DNA from: Mucor racemosus
Lineage: Eukaryota; Mucoromycota; Mucoromycetes; Mucorales; Mucoraceae
Assembly: GCA_027405735.1 (NCBI GenBank)
Contig: JAPEHQ010000001.1
Coordinates: 6,696,001 to 6,760,000 of the forward strand
Length of the DNA stretch: 64,000 nucleotides
Direction of reading: 5' to 3'
Shown here in pieces: positions 39,183-49,700 of this stretch; within the stretch, counting starts at the first letter, position 1, and every line of letters starts with the position of its first letter. Both the position numbers and the translations under genes were made by a program. Below the pieces are notes generated by a model. It did not search any database, had not been told where the DNA came from, and was given only the letters and a program-made list of their open reading frames with translations.

Positions 39183-41623
39183 TTAATAACCAATGCCTGA
39201 CATGATACCATAACCAAGAGTAAAGATCAATACAGTACAAATGATACTAGTAGGAATACCAGTGATAATAAAATCCTTTGTAGTCAAATAAGGCTTGCCA
39301 GAAGGATCTTCAAGCATAATAGCCGACATGTTAGGGTAGCCAGAAACAGGCAAACCCATACCAGCAGAACATGCTAAGCCAGCGCCCATAACCAACAAGT
39401 TGGGATGAGGAATAGGCAACTGTTGACCAACTTCTTGAACAATAGGTACAATAATAAGAGCAGCGACTGTATGAGAAACAAAGGTAGCGAAAACCAAAAT
39501 AAGGAAACAGAAAATAGCTAAAATAGCAATGACAGGTAAATCAGCAATACCGTCCTTGAGACGAAGAGCAATATCTTGCAATAAACCAGAAGATGTAACG
39601 GCATTACCAAGAGCCATACCACCTTGAGCCAATACAACAACAGACCATAAAAAGTTGTTGAGATCATCCTTGTTCAAAATACCAGTACCAAAGAAGACAA
39701 AAAGAGGAATAGCAGCAATGATACCAGTATCACCAATAGCATATTCAATGGAAGACTCAGCACACCAGAGAGCAATGGTAGCAAGAGCAGTGAGACAAAC
39801 AAATACTTGAGTCTTTGTGATCTTTTCCTTGGTAGGCTTAATAGTATTCAAATGAGGAGTATCTCTAGCAGGCTTATAGACAAGCAATAAGAGACCCCAA
39901 CAGACAAACATAGATAAGATGGAAATAGGTAAAGCAGCAGCAAACCAAAGACCCCAACCAGGATTGGGATCAATATATTGAATGGTGACAATATTTTGAG
40001 GAGAAGAGATAGGAGATGTCATACCACCAATACAGCTAGAAAGGGCAATGCCGAGAATCAAACAGGGTGCGACACGAGATCTATCAGGCAAAGTACGAAG
40101 AATAGGGTCGATCAAGGAGAAACAGAGGACGGGGGTGGCAACATTAGAAATGAACATACTGAGGAAACCAGATACGAACATAATAGCCAACAATACCCAC
40201 ATGGGACGAGTACCGGCACGACTCAAAACATGTGAAGCAAATGCCTTGGCAATACCATATTTAGAAAGAGCGGCAGCTAAAGCAAAACCACCAAGAAGCA
40301 TCATAATGGTACCACTGTACATGGATTGGAAAACATTTTTGGAAGCAGCCTTGGCAGTCATTTGATTACCATCAGAATCGTTGATAATACCCAATGGTAC
40401 AATCAAAAATGGAATCAAGAGAGAAGTAGCATAAAGAGGAATAGCCTCAGTAGCCCACATAATAGCAGCAAAAATCAATAAAGCGAAACAGTAGTTTTCT
40501 TGACGATCACCGAAACAATCGACACAGAGAAGGATAATAAAAGCAGCAATAGAAATAGCAAAGCAAATGATTTGACGGAAAAGATCTGATTCAATAGTAT
40601 ATTTTGTAAAGGGGATCTTGTATGTTTTGGTGACCTTGGGTTCAACTAATTTAGTATCATTGACCCTGCGTTCTTGACGCACCATATCCTTCCAAACAGT
40701 ATTACGCTCAAATGTAACTTGATCACGCAAATGGCTCTTCATTTGACGAAGAGCGACAGTGCGATTACCACCACAGAAAGCATCAGCAAAGATGGTTTCA
40801 ATACGAGCAAGTTGTTCCTTGAGAACATTCATAGTTTCAGGCATAAAAGGTCTGCTATCCATAACCATTTTGTTGATATATTGTTCCTTTAAATTACATT
40901 CAAGCACTTTATCGTATTTCTTAAGAATTTTCTCAAAGGCAGTACGATTCAACTCAACATAAGACTCAAGCTCGGATAAGGAAATGTAGAGCAAGATTAA
41001 TTGAGAACGCAAATCTGTTAATTGTTCCATCAAGAAATCATCATCACGATCCATAGACATACGGGATTCAAATGATTGACGAGAAAGACGGCGAGAAGCA
41101 CGGGAAGCTCTTGAACCACGACGTTGAGGAGCAATTTGCTCAATTCTTTCAACAGGGTATCCAGTATCATCCTTTTCGCTCATAGCATTGGGAAAATGAC
41201 ACGTAGAATCAAGGTTTTCAAGAGGGGACAAATGGGGCTTGCCAGGATAATCGCCATCGTTATTGAGATCACCATTACTGTCAATTTCATTATCAATTTG
41301 ATCGAGCATGCCGTAAAGCTCAGATTCTTTTTGAGTGTAGAAATCAAACACTTTTTCAAGTTGTGTATCGAGAGCTGTCAAAAATCTTGCTTCACCATCT
41401 TGCTTATGTTCAAGAGACTTTTCGGGATCTTCATGAGCATTGATTTCCTCGACCTTTTCTTTTTCTAATTGGAAAATCAACTTTTTCAAAGTATCATAGC
41501 TATTAAAAAAAAAAAAATTTAGTCCAAATTTGGATAAAAAACCAAATCATTTGACACCTACTTGACATAATTATCAATCCACTCGGGCACTGCATTTAAT
41601 TGCAATGTATGTGAGAATCTCAT
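39183..41623 (-). CDS. SPX-domain low-affinity phosphate transporter (Pho87/Pho90/Pho91 family)
   Basis: Two exons on the minus strand: 41562-41623 and 39183-41499 (792 aa). The joined N-terminus MRFSHTLQLNAVPEWIDNYV then NYDTLKKLIFQLEKE is the SPX start, which senses inositol pyrophosphates. The SPX region extends to about residue 260 (helices including LIDLRSQLILLYISLSELESYVELN-type and the K-rich FEKILKKYDK). Then comes a DASS/SLC13-type membrane domain: hydrophobic helices from about 320 on, with GGFALAAALSKYGIA, FISNVATPVLCFSL, the SCIGGMTSPISSPQN loop, and the C-terminal SHTVAALIIVPI and CSAGMGLPVSGYPN. The order matches Na+- or H+-coupled phosphate carriers. Plasma membrane (Pho87/90) versus vacuole (Pho91) cannot be decided here. 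Confidence 0.93.
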
Positions 41624-42430
41624 TATAGATGGTCGATTCTTGAGTAATAAAAAAAGTAATAGTAATAAAAAAGAGAAAAATGAGGAATCTTCTGAAAAAG
41701 AATTTTAGAACGGTTTCTTATATATAAATTTTAGCAAAAAAAAAAAAAAAAATCTTTTTTTACATATTTTCGGATGATGAGCTATTTGGTTCAGCCGGAG
41801 CCTAGGTTTACCAGTTTTCCATCATCTAAAGAGTTTAATTAGCTGAATTAGGCAAGCTGAGGCCCTCGTTGATTGGCTTGTTATTTACCACACTACCTCA
41901 CATGTAGTAAATAACATGATTCAACTCGCTCTGGCACTCAAATTCAAGTTTATTTCTGAAAACAAGTAGAATTTCATAGAAATATGTCAAAATCGAATTA
42001 ATGGAATAACAATCAAATTTTGACGTTACATCATTTAGTTATTTTGGCCTACTTTTTTTGTTGGTTGGTGATGTCCTTACCTTTTTTGCTGCCATGGCTC
42101 CAACGCACGACTTATTTACATCAGTAATCAAATCAAGTTTTCCCTCGATTTTTCTATTTTTCCTGGTTTCAACTTATTAAAAGCAATATTTTAAAATACC
42201 TCTCTTTCGTGAAAAGCCAATCATACTTTACACGTGGGGGTAACATTGGTCTTTGAGATGTCTAAAGGTATTCAACTTGGCAAACCCCCACTTTTTAAAT
42301 TTTACCCTGATTGGGAAAATAGTTCGTTATCACGTTTGGAGAAATATATTTGTCTGAATTGTTGATGATATTATCATCGCAGATTTATTGATCAGACAAG
42401 GCTCACATTTGAATTTATCAATACAACAGT
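41624..42430. other. Intergenic region upstream of the transporter
   Basis: Transporter promoter side (41624-41850) then AT-rich DNA without a supported gene. Confidence 0.4.
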
Positions 42431-42469
42431 ATCTTCACCCTGAGACTGGTTGAGTCTCAGGGTGAAGAT
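42431..42469. repeat. Perfect 17-bp hairpin upstream of the Fanzor-like gene
   Basis: ATCTTCACCCTGAGACT (42431-42447), loop GGTTG, then AGTCTCAGGGTGAAGAT (42453-42469): all 17 pairs match. It is much more GC-rich than the surroundings. It lies about 290 bp before the first candidate start codon of the nuclease gene. Confidence 0.9.
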
Positions 42470-42519
42470 GCTGGGTTTGAGTTGCTTATACTGAAAAATA
42501 TGCAAGGACAGTAGTAGTA

Positions 42520-42541
42520 TTCACAAGTTTTGACTTGTGAA
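42520..42541. repeat. Second hairpin, 8-bp stem
   Basis: TTCACAAG (42520-42527), loop TTTTGA, CTTGTGAA (42534-42541). Perfect stem, 50 bp downstream of the 17-bp hairpin. Confidence 0.75.
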
Positions 42542-42755
42542 AAAACCTTTGACATGTTGGCAATAAGAGTCGCACAGTAGTTTGCTTCGGTTCATTTGTA
42601 TTAATAGCCCTTAAAAACACTATAAATAAAGAAAACTATCTTTTGATTCTCCTGTAGATTTACCTAATATATTAACTACTAAATAATAAATAATAAAAAT
42701 CTACATACTCGTCATCAATATTTTGCTTAAAGCATTATTTTTATACAAAAAAAAC

Positions 42756-45700
42756 ATGAGCTCCCCACCTCCTACCGAGAATAATATTTGTAAAAGACAT
42801 CTTATTGTTGAAGATGAAGAAGAAATCGAAGCAGAAATCGAAAACCAACATGTTCTCATGAATGCTGTAGATCAAAACCACCCAACGTTTGTATCTTATA
42901 CTAAAATTTTCACTAGGGTATGTACGGTATAATATCAAAACAACAAAGAAGCTCATATATCTGCAATTAACCTTTTTTAACAACTTGCGAACTTGACATT
43001 CTGCAAAACCAAATAAATCATTTGGATTGATTTGGCCCACAGCGTGAGCGAGGAAACCCCGCTGTTAGCCAACATTGAATGTATTAGTATCGACAACATT
43101 TGATCTTTCTTTTCTTCTTTGTCTATTGTAATAACATCTCAATGCACATAAAAAGAAAACAATTAAATATATACGTTCCTGGCACTACAAGGAGAAATTT
43201 ACCAGCAACTTTGGAAACACAAACAACTAGTCGTAGAAGAGCAACAACTGATGATGATGAAGCTTATATGAACTCGTTGAAAACTCAATTTAGACATAGA
43301 ATCATAAAGCATATCAAAACATGCCATGATGAAAACGAGTCTTTCGATGATTTATACAAAACATTGATGCAGTTAAAACAACTTCCAAGAGGTGTGGTCT
43401 CGAGCGCTGAACAGAGCATCAATGCTCCAGTAAATTCAATTGTAGTGTATCTAAATCGTGTAACAAGAACAACCAAAAAGAAAAGCATTGAACATTGGAA
43501 AGACTATGTAAAAGAAAATTTTGAATCCCTCAAAGATTCAGTAACGATACAAGAAGAATCCACTGCAGCTCAAGAAGGTATTGAAAAGCAAGAAGAAGTA
43601 GATGAAGAAGAACCGGAAGAAATAGATGATAATGAAGTAGAAGACGACATAGCACATAGAACTTGCTCCACATCCTTCTCATCAGTTATTCGAAAGGATT
43701 TGCCACAAAATTGTCTATCAGCATTCATTGGTACTATCAATAAAACTATTGAACAAGCTTCAGATTACTTAGCTGATTTCAGCAAGCAAGTAATGAAAAT
43801 GTTGCTGCTTTTCAAAGACAATCAATTTATCACAAATAGCGGCAATATTCAATTAGTGCACCAAGAGGGACAAAGTATCAATCCAGTGTTACCAGTAGGA
43901 TATCTACACGAGGATGTGATTGTGCCTAAGCCCTTAAATAGTCAATTCCTGCAGACTGATAGTCTGAAAGAAGAGTACAATGTATTATTCCAAGAGGCTC
44001 ACTTTGATCAAATCCATTCAACTTACTTTGGATCAAAAGGAATTAGCAAATCCACCCTGAATACGGCACGACTTCATAAAGCAATAGTAAATTTACTTGG
44101 GCGTGATGAGGAGAATGTTTACAATGATTTGTCGTCTCACGTTATGAAAATGGCAAGAAATGTTTATATCGCCAATTTCATGAATATGTGGGCAGATAAT
44201 ACAATCGTAAACAAAGCATTGAACAGGCTCTTGAATATTCTATTGATTGTCCATTTATCTCCTGCTCATGATCAAGAATTCAAGAAAAAACGTGAGGAGC
44301 TCAAAGGAAAGAATAAAGGAAAAAATAGACAGCCTCCTAACAACAATTGTGCCATTCCAGTAAACTCGATGTCACTCATCAACAAAACTTATAATGGACG
44401 CAGAAGGCTTTTCGCTGACGAGATTAAAAGAAGGAATTGTTATATCGAGAAAGGAGGAGATTGGGTTGTTAAGCAATGGAAAGCTAGCTTGTGTCAGCAA
44501 AGGCTGAACTCATATGCAGATGTTTTGCAAAGAGAGGTAAGATTGATGAACAATCGAATTGAACAAGTATATTAAACAACCTTCTTCTAGAAACAAAAGC
44601 GGCAAGTGAGACGAGAGCAGCAACGTCAACAAGAAGAAGAGCAAGGTATCAAAATGCAAGAAGCGTTGGTAGAAGAAGAGATTCAAGATGTTGACATGGA
44701 AAATATTTTGGTAGAAGAGGACACCTCGCGAAAAAGAATAAACCAGCTAAAGCAGATAACAAGAGCAGCTCTTTTTGAGGAAAAAACAATTTGCAAAGCA
44801 TATTTTGTTGGTAAATTGAGCAACATTAGCGACAAAGAAGTGGAGGTCATCTTGAAGATTATTAAATTTGTAAAGCCATACATGGCATCTAGAGCCACAT
44901 ACCATGTATTTTCACATCAAATTCCCTTTCTCTTGATGGTTAATCAAGTATTGCGTTCTGTTGGTTACCATGGGCAAGTGGTGAAATTGACCCCCATCAT
45001 TAGGCCTACAAATCTGCACGCGTTATGGATTGATGCTACTACATTACACTCTTTGTTTTGTGCTCGAAAGCTGGAACATAAGATGGTACTCCATGATTTC
45101 GAAGGGAACGTCATTCGTGCGGCTTCAGTTACGTCTCAAAAGGATGCTATGTTTAGTAGTTTTTTCGACATAGATCGTCTAAAAACAATATGTGCTGGCT
45201 ACGGGTTGCAATTCGCCTACCGTATGCATGTACTACCTGGACTTCAGTGTGTGAGAATCCTTGGTACTAGAAATTACCAAAAGCATAAACAGAAGAATAA
45301 ACAGCAACCTCCTGTGACTCAGACATCCACAAGAAGCAATGAGATCAGCAGCAGAATTGAAGCATTGATTGACCAGAAGACCACAATAGAGAAAAGGTTG
45401 AAGAACGCTCAAATTACACTTAATAAATATCTACTTGGTTCAGAAAGTGCTTCTCAACTGAAGAAAAAATGGAATGATGAAAATATAGATAGAGACTCGC
45501 TGCATAAAGAGATACAAGTGGCCAAGAAAAAGAAGAGACAATTGATTCAAGAAGTAGTGAAAGCAAAGCAAGAACTGTCCAGTGCCAATAATAACATCTA
45601 CAAGCAGAGATATGACGCTACCTCCTCTACTGAAAGAAGACAGATAATACCAGTCGAGCCCAACAAACCTTGCCATCACAAGGTGGAGGAGTGTATTATT

Positions 45701-46754
45701 GATCAAAAAGTAGATAAAGACCAACTTGTATTTTCAGGGACAGACAACGGTATTATTAATGTCAGGGAGACAGTTGCTTTTGGTGTCGATAGGTTGAAAT
45801 ATCATCTTCGTTTGTACAATCGCTTTCAAGTATTACAAGGTCAAGGTAATTTAATGCTCGTTGATATCTTGCTTGTGGCTAATTTTCAATGCACAAATTT
45901 TAGAAGACGCTTATATGGAAGAAAAAGAAGACGCTCAGTTGAAGAAATTGCCCACATCATTCAAGGTAAGGAGTGCCGCCCTCCGCCAACATAGTGGTCT
46001 TGCTTCTTTTTCGTCTTCGCTCAATAGAAGAAAGCGCCTCACAGTCTTAGGTCAAAATGTTGCTGATCTTGAAAGCGATCTTTCTGAGTCCAGTATACAG
46101 CAATGTGGTACAATTGATGAACTGGATGCAACATTCACTCGCCATTCTCAAGCAAAGTCATGTATTCGTCAATTTTACTTTTCAAGATCGACTGCTAATA
46201 AAAAAAGACGATTAGAATTAACGAAAAATCGATTTTATGATAGACTTGCATCAAAGGAACGAAAATTTACGAAAGTATCGTCCCCTATTATGTTTATTGG
46301 AGATCGTGGGCATGCAATCAGGTCTCCTATTAAAGGACATTTGCGATTTGGTGGATATTGGAAAGAACTGAGACATTCTCGATATACGCCTACATTGATT
46401 ACTAATGAACACAACAGTTCTCAGACCTGCCTTTGGTGTTTCAGCAAATTATCACATCCGTATACTGCAAAAGATGGTACAGTCAAGAAGACTAATGGGT
46501 CATTCATTTGTTTGAACGATGCCTGCCCAAATAAGTCTGTCGTCATGAGCAGGGATTGTCTTTCTGCATTAGCGATTGGCCTCGCTGGTGCTGCTCAGCT
46601 TATGCTTGGTTACACCTTTCCTTGCTTTGATCCAAAAAACACAACAGCGAAACAAGCAATGTTTTCTCAATTAGCTCTGGCATTTTCGGATAGAAAACAG
46701 CAGACAAGCTGGCCCTCCGTTGGGGGTAGTACGACGAGAGCTTCGGCTCTTTGA
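42756..46754 (+). CDS. TnpB/Fanzor-like RNA-guided nuclease candidate
   Basis: Well-supported exons: 43142(or upstream)-44536, 44591-45845, 45904-46754 (1166 aa from 43142). A likely extra 5' exon is 42756-42916 (MSSPPPTENNICKRH ... SYTKIFTR, donor GTATGT), but its junction is unresolved. The last 320 residues look like a TnpB-type RuvC core: QLVFSGTDNGIINV with Asp850 (RuvC-I), IMFIGDRGHAIRS then IKGHLRFGGYWKE with Asp1017 where RuvC-II Glu would be expected, TNEHNSSQTCLWCF with a CX2C...CX4C zinc ribbon (Cys1059, 1062, 1086, 1091), and MSRDCLSALAIG with Asp1101 (RuvC-III). Fanzors are eukaryotic relatives of TnpB that cut DNA guided by an omega-RNA. The roughly 850-residue N-terminal part is acidic and coiled-coil-like and unlike the short TnpB wedge. 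The frame is intact across three exons, so the gene is probably expressed. Activity is inference. Confidence 0.7.
46736..46754 (+). ncRNA. cUUCGg tetraloop hairpin over the stop codon: omega-RNA candidate
   Basis: AGAGC (46737-46741), TTCG, GCTCT (46746-46750), extended by a G-T pair, ends one base before the TGA stop (46752-46754). C(UUCG)G is an unusually stable RNA tetraloop. TnpB and Fanzor guide RNAs overlap or follow the 3' end of the nuclease ORF, so this position is suggestive. Only the hairpin is seen; an RNA gene is inference. Confidence 0.35.
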
Positions 46755-49700
46755 GGTAAGTTTATATTCATTAGACATAACTCAATACTAAATCAATTCG
46801 TTTTTAATCTTCTAAATTCAAATTCACCTTTGGTGAGTAAAATCCTTCTACATTTGTTACCCAGTCAACTAATCAAATCTCTCTTTCCTTTTTGAACTAC
46901 TTAGCTTGCTATACCCTCTCAGTAAAACGTAGTTGGTTGGCCAAGCGGCTAAATTTTCCCATTTTTTCATGTGGCTTAATATTTCATAAAATTGTATTGC
47001 TTCGGTTTAATCAGCATCTGCGGCATAAAGCCAAGCTTTTTCATACTTGTAATAATTTTGATAAACATTCTCTCCAATATATACACAAAATGAACATGAT
47101 GCCAATTGGTTTAGTTTGATATCAATTTCTAGATTGCATTTCCTCTCAAATCTAATGATTTGGCGTATTTAATAATTTTTTGACATGTAAAATCCATATA
47201 TATATTGTGATCACAACAATATAAAAATTATGTCTTTAGGTATACCACGTGCCTATATTTCCAAGCAAAACAATCAATACTACTTGACATGAGTTTCAAT
47301 TATTCATCTCGCAAGTTTTTTTTATAGAAAGGTTTTTCAGCCTTGTTTGGCCCACCACTCAATATGCTTGAAATATATGAAAGATCTAGTTTGTAAATTA
47401 TGTTATATATGTGAATTTATTTTTATTACTGTACTAAGCAAATTAATCATGCAGTATGCGTATATAATATCTATGTATATTCTGTAATCTTGTAATTCAT
47501 CGCAATAAGATCTTGCCATCGATTTGAACTGGATTTCCAGAAATTTTGATAAATTTTACCATTTGAAGATCTATCCTAATAATAGCACATGAGGTAAGTA
47601 ATATATAATCTATTCTCCAATGTTTCAATTGCACGATAATAGCATAGCATATTTTTTGATAATTACTACCTCATAGTGTTTTTAAATAGTTAAATCATTG
47701 CTATTTAAGCACCCAAATAACACTTAACAGTTTCTAATCTATGCTTTGCATTAAATTAATACCTACGTTATGTGTCTCAGCTTTCCAAAATCGATCATGG
47801 CTCAAGCTGAATTCACAACTAAAATAGCGTTGTATCACCCAAAAATGCATGAATCAGCACTTTTTTTTTTTTTGAAAAAGATCATCCTTATACATTTATC
47901 ACAAGCTGTATCAATTAAGTACATTTATCAATATATCTTTTGTCCGTAATTTGTTCCAAGTCAGGTAACTCAAGCGTTGCCAGTAGTGTGGTTGAAAGAA
48001 ATCACCTACAGTACAAAACTTTAAAGCGCGCCACACGCTTAAAAACATAAGAATTAAAGAAAGTTGCTACAAAAGCATACCTAACGACATTCAAACGGCA
48101 CAAAATTTGTCTTAAAAGATGCGCTAGACTTTTATTGACATTTTGATACCATGTTTGCTTAGTTTACGTGGAATTTTTGTAGTTTTCAATCTGACATGGG
48201 ATATCTGACAACTTTCTAACCGACTTTTTTCAGAAAAGTGTTTTTCAAAATCGGAGCGAGCATTATCTAAGCATGCTACAGACTTACAAAAAGTATCATT
48301 TTAAAGCCAAGATGCACGAAATTATATTCAAAATTATTTGGTTAATTTATCATGTATATTGATGCTGTTATTAACCTTTAAAGTTGGGCTTTTTGTCAAG
48401 AAAACGCGTAAATGTTGATATTCGCTTTTTTAGTAACTGCGTTTAAATTTTGTGAGCTGCTGCTGCTTCTACCAAAAATGCTTGGATTTCTTGATTTAAG
48501 AGTAGAATGCATATCAAGCACAATTTTGTCTACTGTTTACTATATTCTACGTATGTGTGCTCAATTTGCACTAAGTTTAAGCTAAAATCGATGGGAAATT
48601 GCTTGGATGATCTCTTAGAAGGAACGAAAGCCAGTGACATTCATCTAATTTTAACGTACTTTAAAGAGTTTTAAGCCCTTAAAACTGCTTGATTAATAAA
48701 AAAAACAAGCAACCATAATATTGTTCAACATCTGAAAGACGTCTCTGCATTTTTTTCATGTCGAAAAAACCGCCATATATAGTTACTCAGATTACGACTA
48801 AAACAGCATCATTGACTTAATTAAACCTAATTGAGCTTTTTTAAAAAACAAAAGATACCCATAGATACTTTGAATGTCTTTATTTACTTTTTGTTTTCAT
48901 ATTTCTTGTTTCGTCAATCGAAATCTGATACAATAATCGCTTAAAGTATAGCCGAATATCTATTATAATTTAAATGCAGATCCATGCTTGTTGAAGATTC
49001 ATGGCACATGACACCACTGTAAATTGAATCAAATTGCGTATACATATGAGAATATACAAAGTTTATTATCAAATATAAACAAAAGGAATAAATATGTGTG
49101 GGGTACATGTGATAATGCGTGCCTGGCCATTTATAAACATATTTGAGCCTGTTATTTACTCCAAAGTAATTATTACCATTTGTATTTCTGAGTGGTATCA
49201 CAATAGCACCAATATGATCATTTGTAAATAAGGCATTAAGTGATATTATTAGAAACTTGAAAAAAAGCTAACTGTGATAGGGTCAAACCTTCTTTTATTC
49301 TGCAATCCCTTTTCTTTACATATAATCCTGGCACAAGGAGATTATCAATGGAAAAAAAATTAAATCTTTGTCATTTCTTATTCAATTATCAACAAAACTG
49401 CATATGCAAATTATCGCATACATAAGCGGCCATTATTTTATTCTCCTTTTTAAATATTTTAAATTGATTAACAAGAAAGAAAATCAGATTACGTATTTAA
49501 GAATTTATATTATTATAGATATTCGTTGTACATGGGCATATAACATTTACAAACAAGAAGAATAACTTTAACTTCTAGAAGCACAAAATGGTTAGATAAC
49601 CTGTTGATGCTCATTGTAACAAGGAAATAACTCCGGATTTTAGTAAATATCTGAATTTTGGTTAGTGCAAATCGATGAGCTTTATAAGCAATAAAGCCGT

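Follow-up and report, generated by a model that had tools for sequence, protein, structure and literature searches.

The window, by which we mean the whole 64,000-nucleotide stretch of Mucor racemosus DNA that was analysed, contains an element that we read as an intact, recently mobile transposon carrying only an unusually large nuclease of the Fanzor1 type, with a probability of about 0.8 for this reading taken jointly with its inferred steps. It is a multi-copy mobile element with defined ends, and its coding region is under constraint. The D-E-D residues stand in the Fanzor order, the Fanzor1 fold is recovered in the predicted model of a homologue (P0001), and longer relatives with the same ends encode an NDC10_II protein. 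According to our model, the putative Crypton-type recombinase of these relatives would move the window element in trans, and the putative nuclease would be guided by an RNA composed of the 3′ end of its own element and adjacent host DNA; the guided nuclease would then cut the empty donor site, after which repair would retain the element. Cutting of the empty donor site to retain the element has been proposed for TnpB and Fanzor.

Gene model and element structure

Three exons read from the ATG at 43142 encode a protein of 1166 aa, and given this start, the coordinates, the three exons, the 1166 codons and the motifs that had been described in an earlier sequence-only reading of this DNA are correct. 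The protein would have 1238 aa if an upstream exon were joined in frame (1238 − 72 = 1166). In 20 of 21 copies, this upstream exon (42756–42917) has an open frame that includes its ATG. As the donor of the exon, 14 of the 21 have GT, five GC and two TT; its pN/pS is 0.58 over 24 changes, and by eye P0001 shows no counterpart of it, starting instead at the methionine that matches 43142. Between 42427 and 46924, no further stop-to-stop frame of at least 150 aa is found besides the Fanzor-like gene. The features of the element are as follows.

42427–46924, +: family A transposon copy, 4498 bp, CAGTA at both termini (homology breaks between genomic copies)
42427–42473, +: left end with inverted arms (comparison of copies)
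42756–42917, +: possible upstream exon, uncertain (open frame in copies; donor variable)
43142–44536, +: exon 1 of the Fanzor-like gene, with start Met and the lobe before RuvC (P0001 begins at the matching Met, by eye)
44537–44590, +: intron 1 (GT..AG in 21/21 copies)
44591–45845, +: exon 2, ending after RuvC-I (gene assembly in copies)
45743–45745, +: RuvC-I Asp850 in GTDNG (invariant in alignments A2 and A3)
45846–45903, +: intron 2 (GT..AG in 21/21 copies)
45904–46754, +: exon 3, with the remaining RuvC, zinc ribbon, C-terminal tail and stop (gene assembly in copies)
46407–46409, +: Glu1052, the alternative glutamate of RuvC-II, six residues ahead of the first Cys of the ribbon (P0001 E1005 invariant in A3; rule from an excerpt of PMC10711439)
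46428–46526, +: C4 zinc ribbon, CX2C, x23, CX4C (motif comparison)
46554–46556, +: RuvC-III Asp1101 in RDCLSALAIG (motif comparison)
46712–46727, +: short RNA hairpin at the CDS end, candidate scaffold (pairing retained in A, B and D although the letters differ)
46756–46761, +: 5′ splice donor-like GTAAGT directly 3′ of the stop codon (21/21 copies)
46833–46838, +: second donor-like site, GTGAGT in the window and two other copies, GTAAGT in 18 copies
46868–46875, +: branch-point-like ACTAATCA (21/21 copies)
46902–46904, +: first AG at least 10 nt past the branch point, making the last 20 nt of the element the putative 3′ exon

About 0.9 kb to the left of the element, a gene at 39183–41546 on the − strand encodes a transporter that combines SPX and citrate/sulfate symporter domains.

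Copies in the genome and coding constraint

A genome search for paralogues, which the sequence-only reading had proposed, yielded 23 family A copies including the window copy, plus families B and C, in the source genome of 53.2 Mb in 54 contigs; these copy counts are lower bounds that leave shorter and weaker pieces uncounted. The search with the last exon returned at least 22 near-identical places at 96–99% identity (family A), together with one further copy with stops, at least 13 places at 51–53% identity (family B) and at least 11 at 38–40% (family C), eight of the latter 11 with one uninterrupted frame of 1194–1196 codons. The family A copies are dispersed, with clean ends and differing flanks, and 21 of the 23 were assembled, two being without an anchor. 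Pairwise identity among these 21 is 97.5–99.9% (mean 98.2%), and their coding sequences show a pN/pS of 0.335 (169 nonsynonymous, 133 synonymous and two nonsense changes). The frame is whole in 18 assembled copies and broken in three, which, together with the pN/pS, goes beyond chance. Neither the multiple copies nor the element ends had been recognised in the sequence-only reading.

Protein motifs and sequence relatives

By sequence, searches of Pfam, PHROGs and the PDB gave no TnpB or Fanzor match for the window protein itself, and its homologues, with NCBIfam included, gave weak matches only: PF07282 was reached by three of 13 homologues (best E 0.085), and SpuFz1 (8gkh) by a profile of all 13, collinear over 214 positions at an E of only 0.15. 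With about 8000 candidates scored per search, at least 12 relatives were found besides the query's own family; seven of the 13 database relatives look full-length (1082–1308 aa). The named ones, P0004 and P0009 excluded, come from Mucor, Rhizopus, Choanephora and Apophysomyces, all of which we take to be Mucorales. The name of one relative, P0010 ('Up in starvation'), is taken for a misannotation.

We compared 12 sequences, namely the window protein, one family C frame and ten of the 13 database relatives, leaving out P0003, P0007 and P0009, of which the last two end too early. The D-E-D residues and the four zinc ligands are present in all 12, with E, C4 and RD always in this order. In 12 of 12, the zinc finger is also preceded at a distance of six residues by the alternative RuvC-II Glu that an excerpt of PMC10711439 describes for Fanzor1. 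The founding Fanzor1 motif, D-X(125,275)-[TS][TS]-XX-C4 zinc finger-X(5,50)-RD (excerpt of PMC3627910), fits the window protein, with 202 residues from D to E, SSQT-C, and x8-RD; in P0011, the D-to-E distance of 283 exceeds the upper spacing of the motif. The TnpB/Fanzor-like core that had been proposed from the letters is supported; D, alternative E, C4 ribbon and RD stand in Fanzor order and spacing. The RuvC-I motif is DNG in 11 sequences and DYG in one (P0014), in place of the DPG that an excerpt of PMC10711439 describes as near exclusive to Fanzors.

GDRG, also pointed out in the sequence-only reading, is present in the frame, but it is unlikely to be catalytic, given that its D is replaced by N in P0005 and by T in P0014, while the E before the first Cys is constant. 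In TnpB, the canonical RuvC-II Glu lies about 50 residues ahead of the zinc finger; at the GDRG position, none of the 12 sequences has a Glu. In the alignment to SpuFz1 (E 0.15), the G of IGDRG and E1052 face MGDW and DEYKTS; we infer that these equate to G500 and E536 of SPu-1-1p, two further residues conserved in Fanzor1 according to an excerpt of PMC3627910.

A profile of the C-terminal part matched L074, a locus elsewhere in the genome (E 1e-18, small test set), and a SpuFz1 segment (4.8e-7), against 0.054 for the best of 1000 shuffles; with this profile, L067 and L071, two canonical Fanzors that the genome also contains, were indistinguishable from shuffles. L074 (G000:C19:93653), whose Fanzor exon falls between SpuFz1 and the oversized family, is matched both by the window query (E 2.4e-7) and by PF07282 (E 0.008, under the cut-off), and so bridges the two families. 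Beside it, on the opposite strand, a NUDIX-like reading frame was noticed by eye.

Predicted fold of a homologue

A structure prediction without an RNase H fold, or a confident match to an unrelated family, had been preset as the refutation of the sequence-only reading, and the outcome was in favour of that reading; what we obtained, for the homologue P0001 (43% identical to window residues 680–1238), was an AlphaFold2 model (pLDDT 67, pTM 0.54) whose seven Foldseek matches in the PDB at E ≤0.001 (3.9e-8 to 2.1e-4) are all Fanzor1 chains, followed by Cas12s. The model shows the Fanzor1 fold (WED, REC, RuvC and TNB), and its residues 167–1080 align to SpuFz 18–633, covering 549 of 590 SpuFz residues by VIA-align, a second look at Foldseek's own list that is silent on families outside it. 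Identity in the structural alignments with Fanzor1s is 10–14%. In a viral library, the 0.001 threshold is passed by 18 matches, of which four carry the name transposase and another is a Cas12f1-like TNB protein. The earlier suggestion of a fused N-terminal domain is unsupported from model residue 167 on, the first 166 residues being unmatched. Since DPG is absent, we file the window protein, going by the modelled homologue, as a divergent, Fanzor1-like lineage outside the strict fingerprint.

Element ends and a probable Crypton-type carrier

Comparing copies set the element ends at 42427 and 46924. No inverted pair joins the two ends and no terminal inverted repeats were seen; family A carries short terminal direct repeats, as Cryptons do. 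The left terminus is CAGTA in 19 of 20 hairpin-type family A copies and CGGTA in one, preceded by AA in all 20; L051–L053, with a truncated or different left end, are excluded from this count. Elsewhere, the letters before the left CAGTA are TT (L052 and the pattern on C13) or AT (the B copy L064 and the pattern on C12). The right terminus is CAGTA in 22 of 23 copies and TAGTA in one, with T following in 20 of 23. The left palindrome spans ~50 nt in the window copy and one other, ~100 nt in one and ~160–170 nt in others.

In the eight letters after the left CAGTA, six of 20 copies deviate, and ten of the 11 deviating letters (four of which come from one copy with a small insertion) equal the copy's own right flank. 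Over the 20 copies, left-end and right-flank agreement is 79, compared to 71.2 by permutation (p 0.00025), a pattern that strand exchange with the target would leave. An empty site reading AACAGTATNTT would make CAGTA part of the target and one reading AATNTT part of the element; when the flanks of 20 copies were joined and searched for, the best 40 of 108 candidates gave 40 matches, each at the copy's own place, and no empty site.

The left-end pattern recurs upstream of B copies on C26 (0 mismatches), C13 (three) and C12 (two). The long element on C26, of about 7.6 kb, encodes a PF16787 (NDC10_II) protein (E 4.9e-42), which we take to be a Crypton-type tyrosine recombinase, and close copies of this protein (93–100%) occur only on C26, C13 and C12, beside B copies, those on C13 and C12 being recognised by similarity. 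No tyrosine recombinase is present in the window copy. Given that longer relatives sharing these ends encode the NDC10_II protein, we favour the view that the window copy is a non-autonomous element of Crypton type which has retained the Fanzor.

Helitron or rolling-circle ends, a reading prompted by the left hairpin and the AA/T flanks, were dropped once the NDC10_II protein was found, and Tc1/mariner ends were rejected for A and B, there being no fitting TA duplication. The family C carrier, read by eye in L061–L063, three of the 11 copies, has inverted ends, CTTGAATCTTGCRAGTATAAT, and 8 bp of matching flank in each of the three. The genome also holds a second, abundant NDC10_II family, with 42 places at 33–34% identity to the C26 protein, mostly with a 412-codon frame, and weaker ones elsewhere; seven pairs of these places lie ~2.9 kb apart.

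Right end: hairpin and splice-like signals

From the stop codon to the element end, identity between A and one B copy is 0.66, compared to 0.43–0.52 in 5′ non-coding sequence and 0.44–0.71 in coding windows. The hairpin at the CDS end is paired in 30 of 30 cells across five sequences of subfamilies A, B and D, with three of six pairs changed on both sides, a value reached by 32 of 500 shuffles; this covariation only hints at a candidate omega RNA scaffold. In folding energy, the 3′ region does not stand out (z −0.61), nor do four short pieces of it (best z −1.92), and Rfam, at its gathering scores, matched nothing in the window.

GTRAGT, CTAAY and a first AG 8–25 nt from the end co-occur in 23 of 23 A copies, six of seven B copies (of 13 places), three of three C copies (of 11) and four of four copies of a further family, K; these criteria were set after the sequences had been inspected, and A and B are homologous. 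For the subfamily D locus L077, the branch-point criterion has to be relaxed to obtain a fit, and the set is absent from L071 and from the B copy L028. Among 4000 shuffles, the set appears nine times for A, three for B, none for C and six for K; in background sequence, it occurs in 0.03–0.2% of window segments, 11 of 14748 segments of other fetched loci and none of four left ends. The acceptor AG lies 11–20 nt from the element end, so near that a spliced last exon must be mostly host DNA, and the guides of TnpB and Fanzor derive from adjacent host DNA.

These observations suggest a tentative, on balance doubtful proposal, in which the Fanzor elements of this fungus would form their guide RNA by splicing, the scaffold being joined to adjacent host DNA as the guide. 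A spliceosomal intron would separate the scaffold at the 3′ end of the gene from the last 11–20 nt of the element, and once it is removed, little would remain of the right end recognised by the transposase. The arrangement would have been reached or kept at three right ends, namely Crypton-like (A, B), on an inverted-repeat carrier (C) and mariner-resembling (K). No description of a right-end spliceosomal intron in Fanzor elements was found in the titles and abstract openings of the CC-licensed PMC papers listed in our literature searches.

Family K (L067–L070, at G000:C11:327917, C1:6570424, C19:945057 and C20:867119) comprises canonical Fanzors with PF07282 above cut-off, in which ~130 nt free of AG separate a branch-point-like ACTAAT from an AG 11–12 nt from the right end; by eye, this right end resembles mariner. 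L077 (G000:C12:878000–880200, 2.2 kb fetched) has a family A right end and keeps only the last Fanzor codons and the 3′ region, as would an RNA-only or degraded derivative. L071 (G000:C19:930696) is a PF07282 Fanzor that, by eye, lies next to a sequence resembling the inverted repeat of family C; the same type of carrier may therefore serve two lineages of Fanzors.

Alternative explanations

The protein could be Fanzor-derived and no longer an RNA-guided nuclease, serving the element in some other way, for example by binding DNA as a helper or by acting as its transposase; nothing else of size is encoded in the family A element, DNG stands in place of DPG, the lobe is very large, and the 3′ region shows no significant RNA fold. 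We consider this improbable, since D-E-D and the four zinc ligands are kept throughout the compared sequences and relatives with the same ends supply a candidate recombinase. An intact frame under constraint would also be expected of a host gene domesticated from a Fanzor and kept for a host function, a very remote prospect already contradicted by the 22 dispersed, near-identical copies, whose ends are clean and whose flanks differ. Hardly credible is a protein with an RNase H fold but no relation to Fanzors, its zinc ribbon being there by chance: it would account for the lack of a family match by sequence, but it is already contradicted by the fold matches, which cover nearly all of SpuFz with Fanzor1s ahead of everything else listed, and by the bridging locus L074.

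As for the right end, the splice-like signals are probably those of an ordinary 3′-UTR intron or due to chance, with any guide RNA read through unspliced. They were spotted first and the test set afterwards, they arise at the stated low rates in shuffles (0–9 of 4000) and background, L071 and L028 are without them and D shows them only in relaxed form, and within family A the 3′ non-coding sequence is as variable as the 5′ (27 of 170 versus 98 of 642 sites). Against this stand the recurrence of one arrangement at three right ends that differ from each other within a single genome, the A–B identity of the 3′ end, which equals that of well-kept coding sequence (0.66 and 0.66) and exceeds that of the 5′ part, and the position of the acceptor, which would necessarily make a spliced 3′ exon mostly host DNA.

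Comparison with known systems

Like Fanzor1 (SpuFz1, PpFz1, GtFz1; of these, PpFz1 is described in PMC11423790 as purified from S. cerevisiae), the window protein is transposon-borne in a eukaryote, and it shares with these proteins the fold, as modelled for P0001 residues 167–1080, and the order and spacing of D, alternative E, C4 and RD. Unlike them, it has DNG rather than DPG and is far longer, with 1166 aa here and 1082–1308 aa in full-length relatives compared to up to ~800 aa reported in an excerpt of PMC10711439. What our analysis contributes is a further Fanzor1-like lineage, very large and divergent in sequence, in which the RuvC-I motif is altered and many copies are intact; we take all of its named database relatives to be Mucorales.

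Excerpts of PMC3627910 describe MuDR-type Fanzor elements of Mucor, Rhizopus and Phycomyces with terminal inverted repeats and 9-bp duplications, compared to inverted repeats and 8 bp of matching flank in our family C. The same excerpts report MCi-2 of Mucor circinelloides, also a Mucor Fanzor1 element with a nearly identical 3′ part and a variable 5′ part, one subfamily of which has a partial Crypton transposase; its target duplications are reported as 11–12 bp, ATAATTNNNN(N), whereas CAGTA repeats are found here, and the present family may be one of the ten MCi families. Our elements resemble Cryptons in that their termini are short direct repeats, inverted repeats are lacking and long relatives encode an NDC10_II protein, but the window copy has no recombinase and has kept only the Fanzor. 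A link between Fanzor1 and Crypton is mentioned in an excerpt of PMC10711439 and left uncertain for the Mucor MCi-2 elements in that of PMC3627910; the present relatives would tie a Fanzor1-like lineage to a Crypton-type transposon.

Finally, IStrons, which are IS elements of bacteria that contain a group I intron (excerpt of PMC4227781), likewise have a transposon transcript with an intron tied to the element's ends. Unlike theirs, the signals here are of spliceosomal appearance, and splicing would link the scaffold with the guide instead of reconstituting a host gene; if the signals are real, this would give a mobile element a new route to build its guide RNA.
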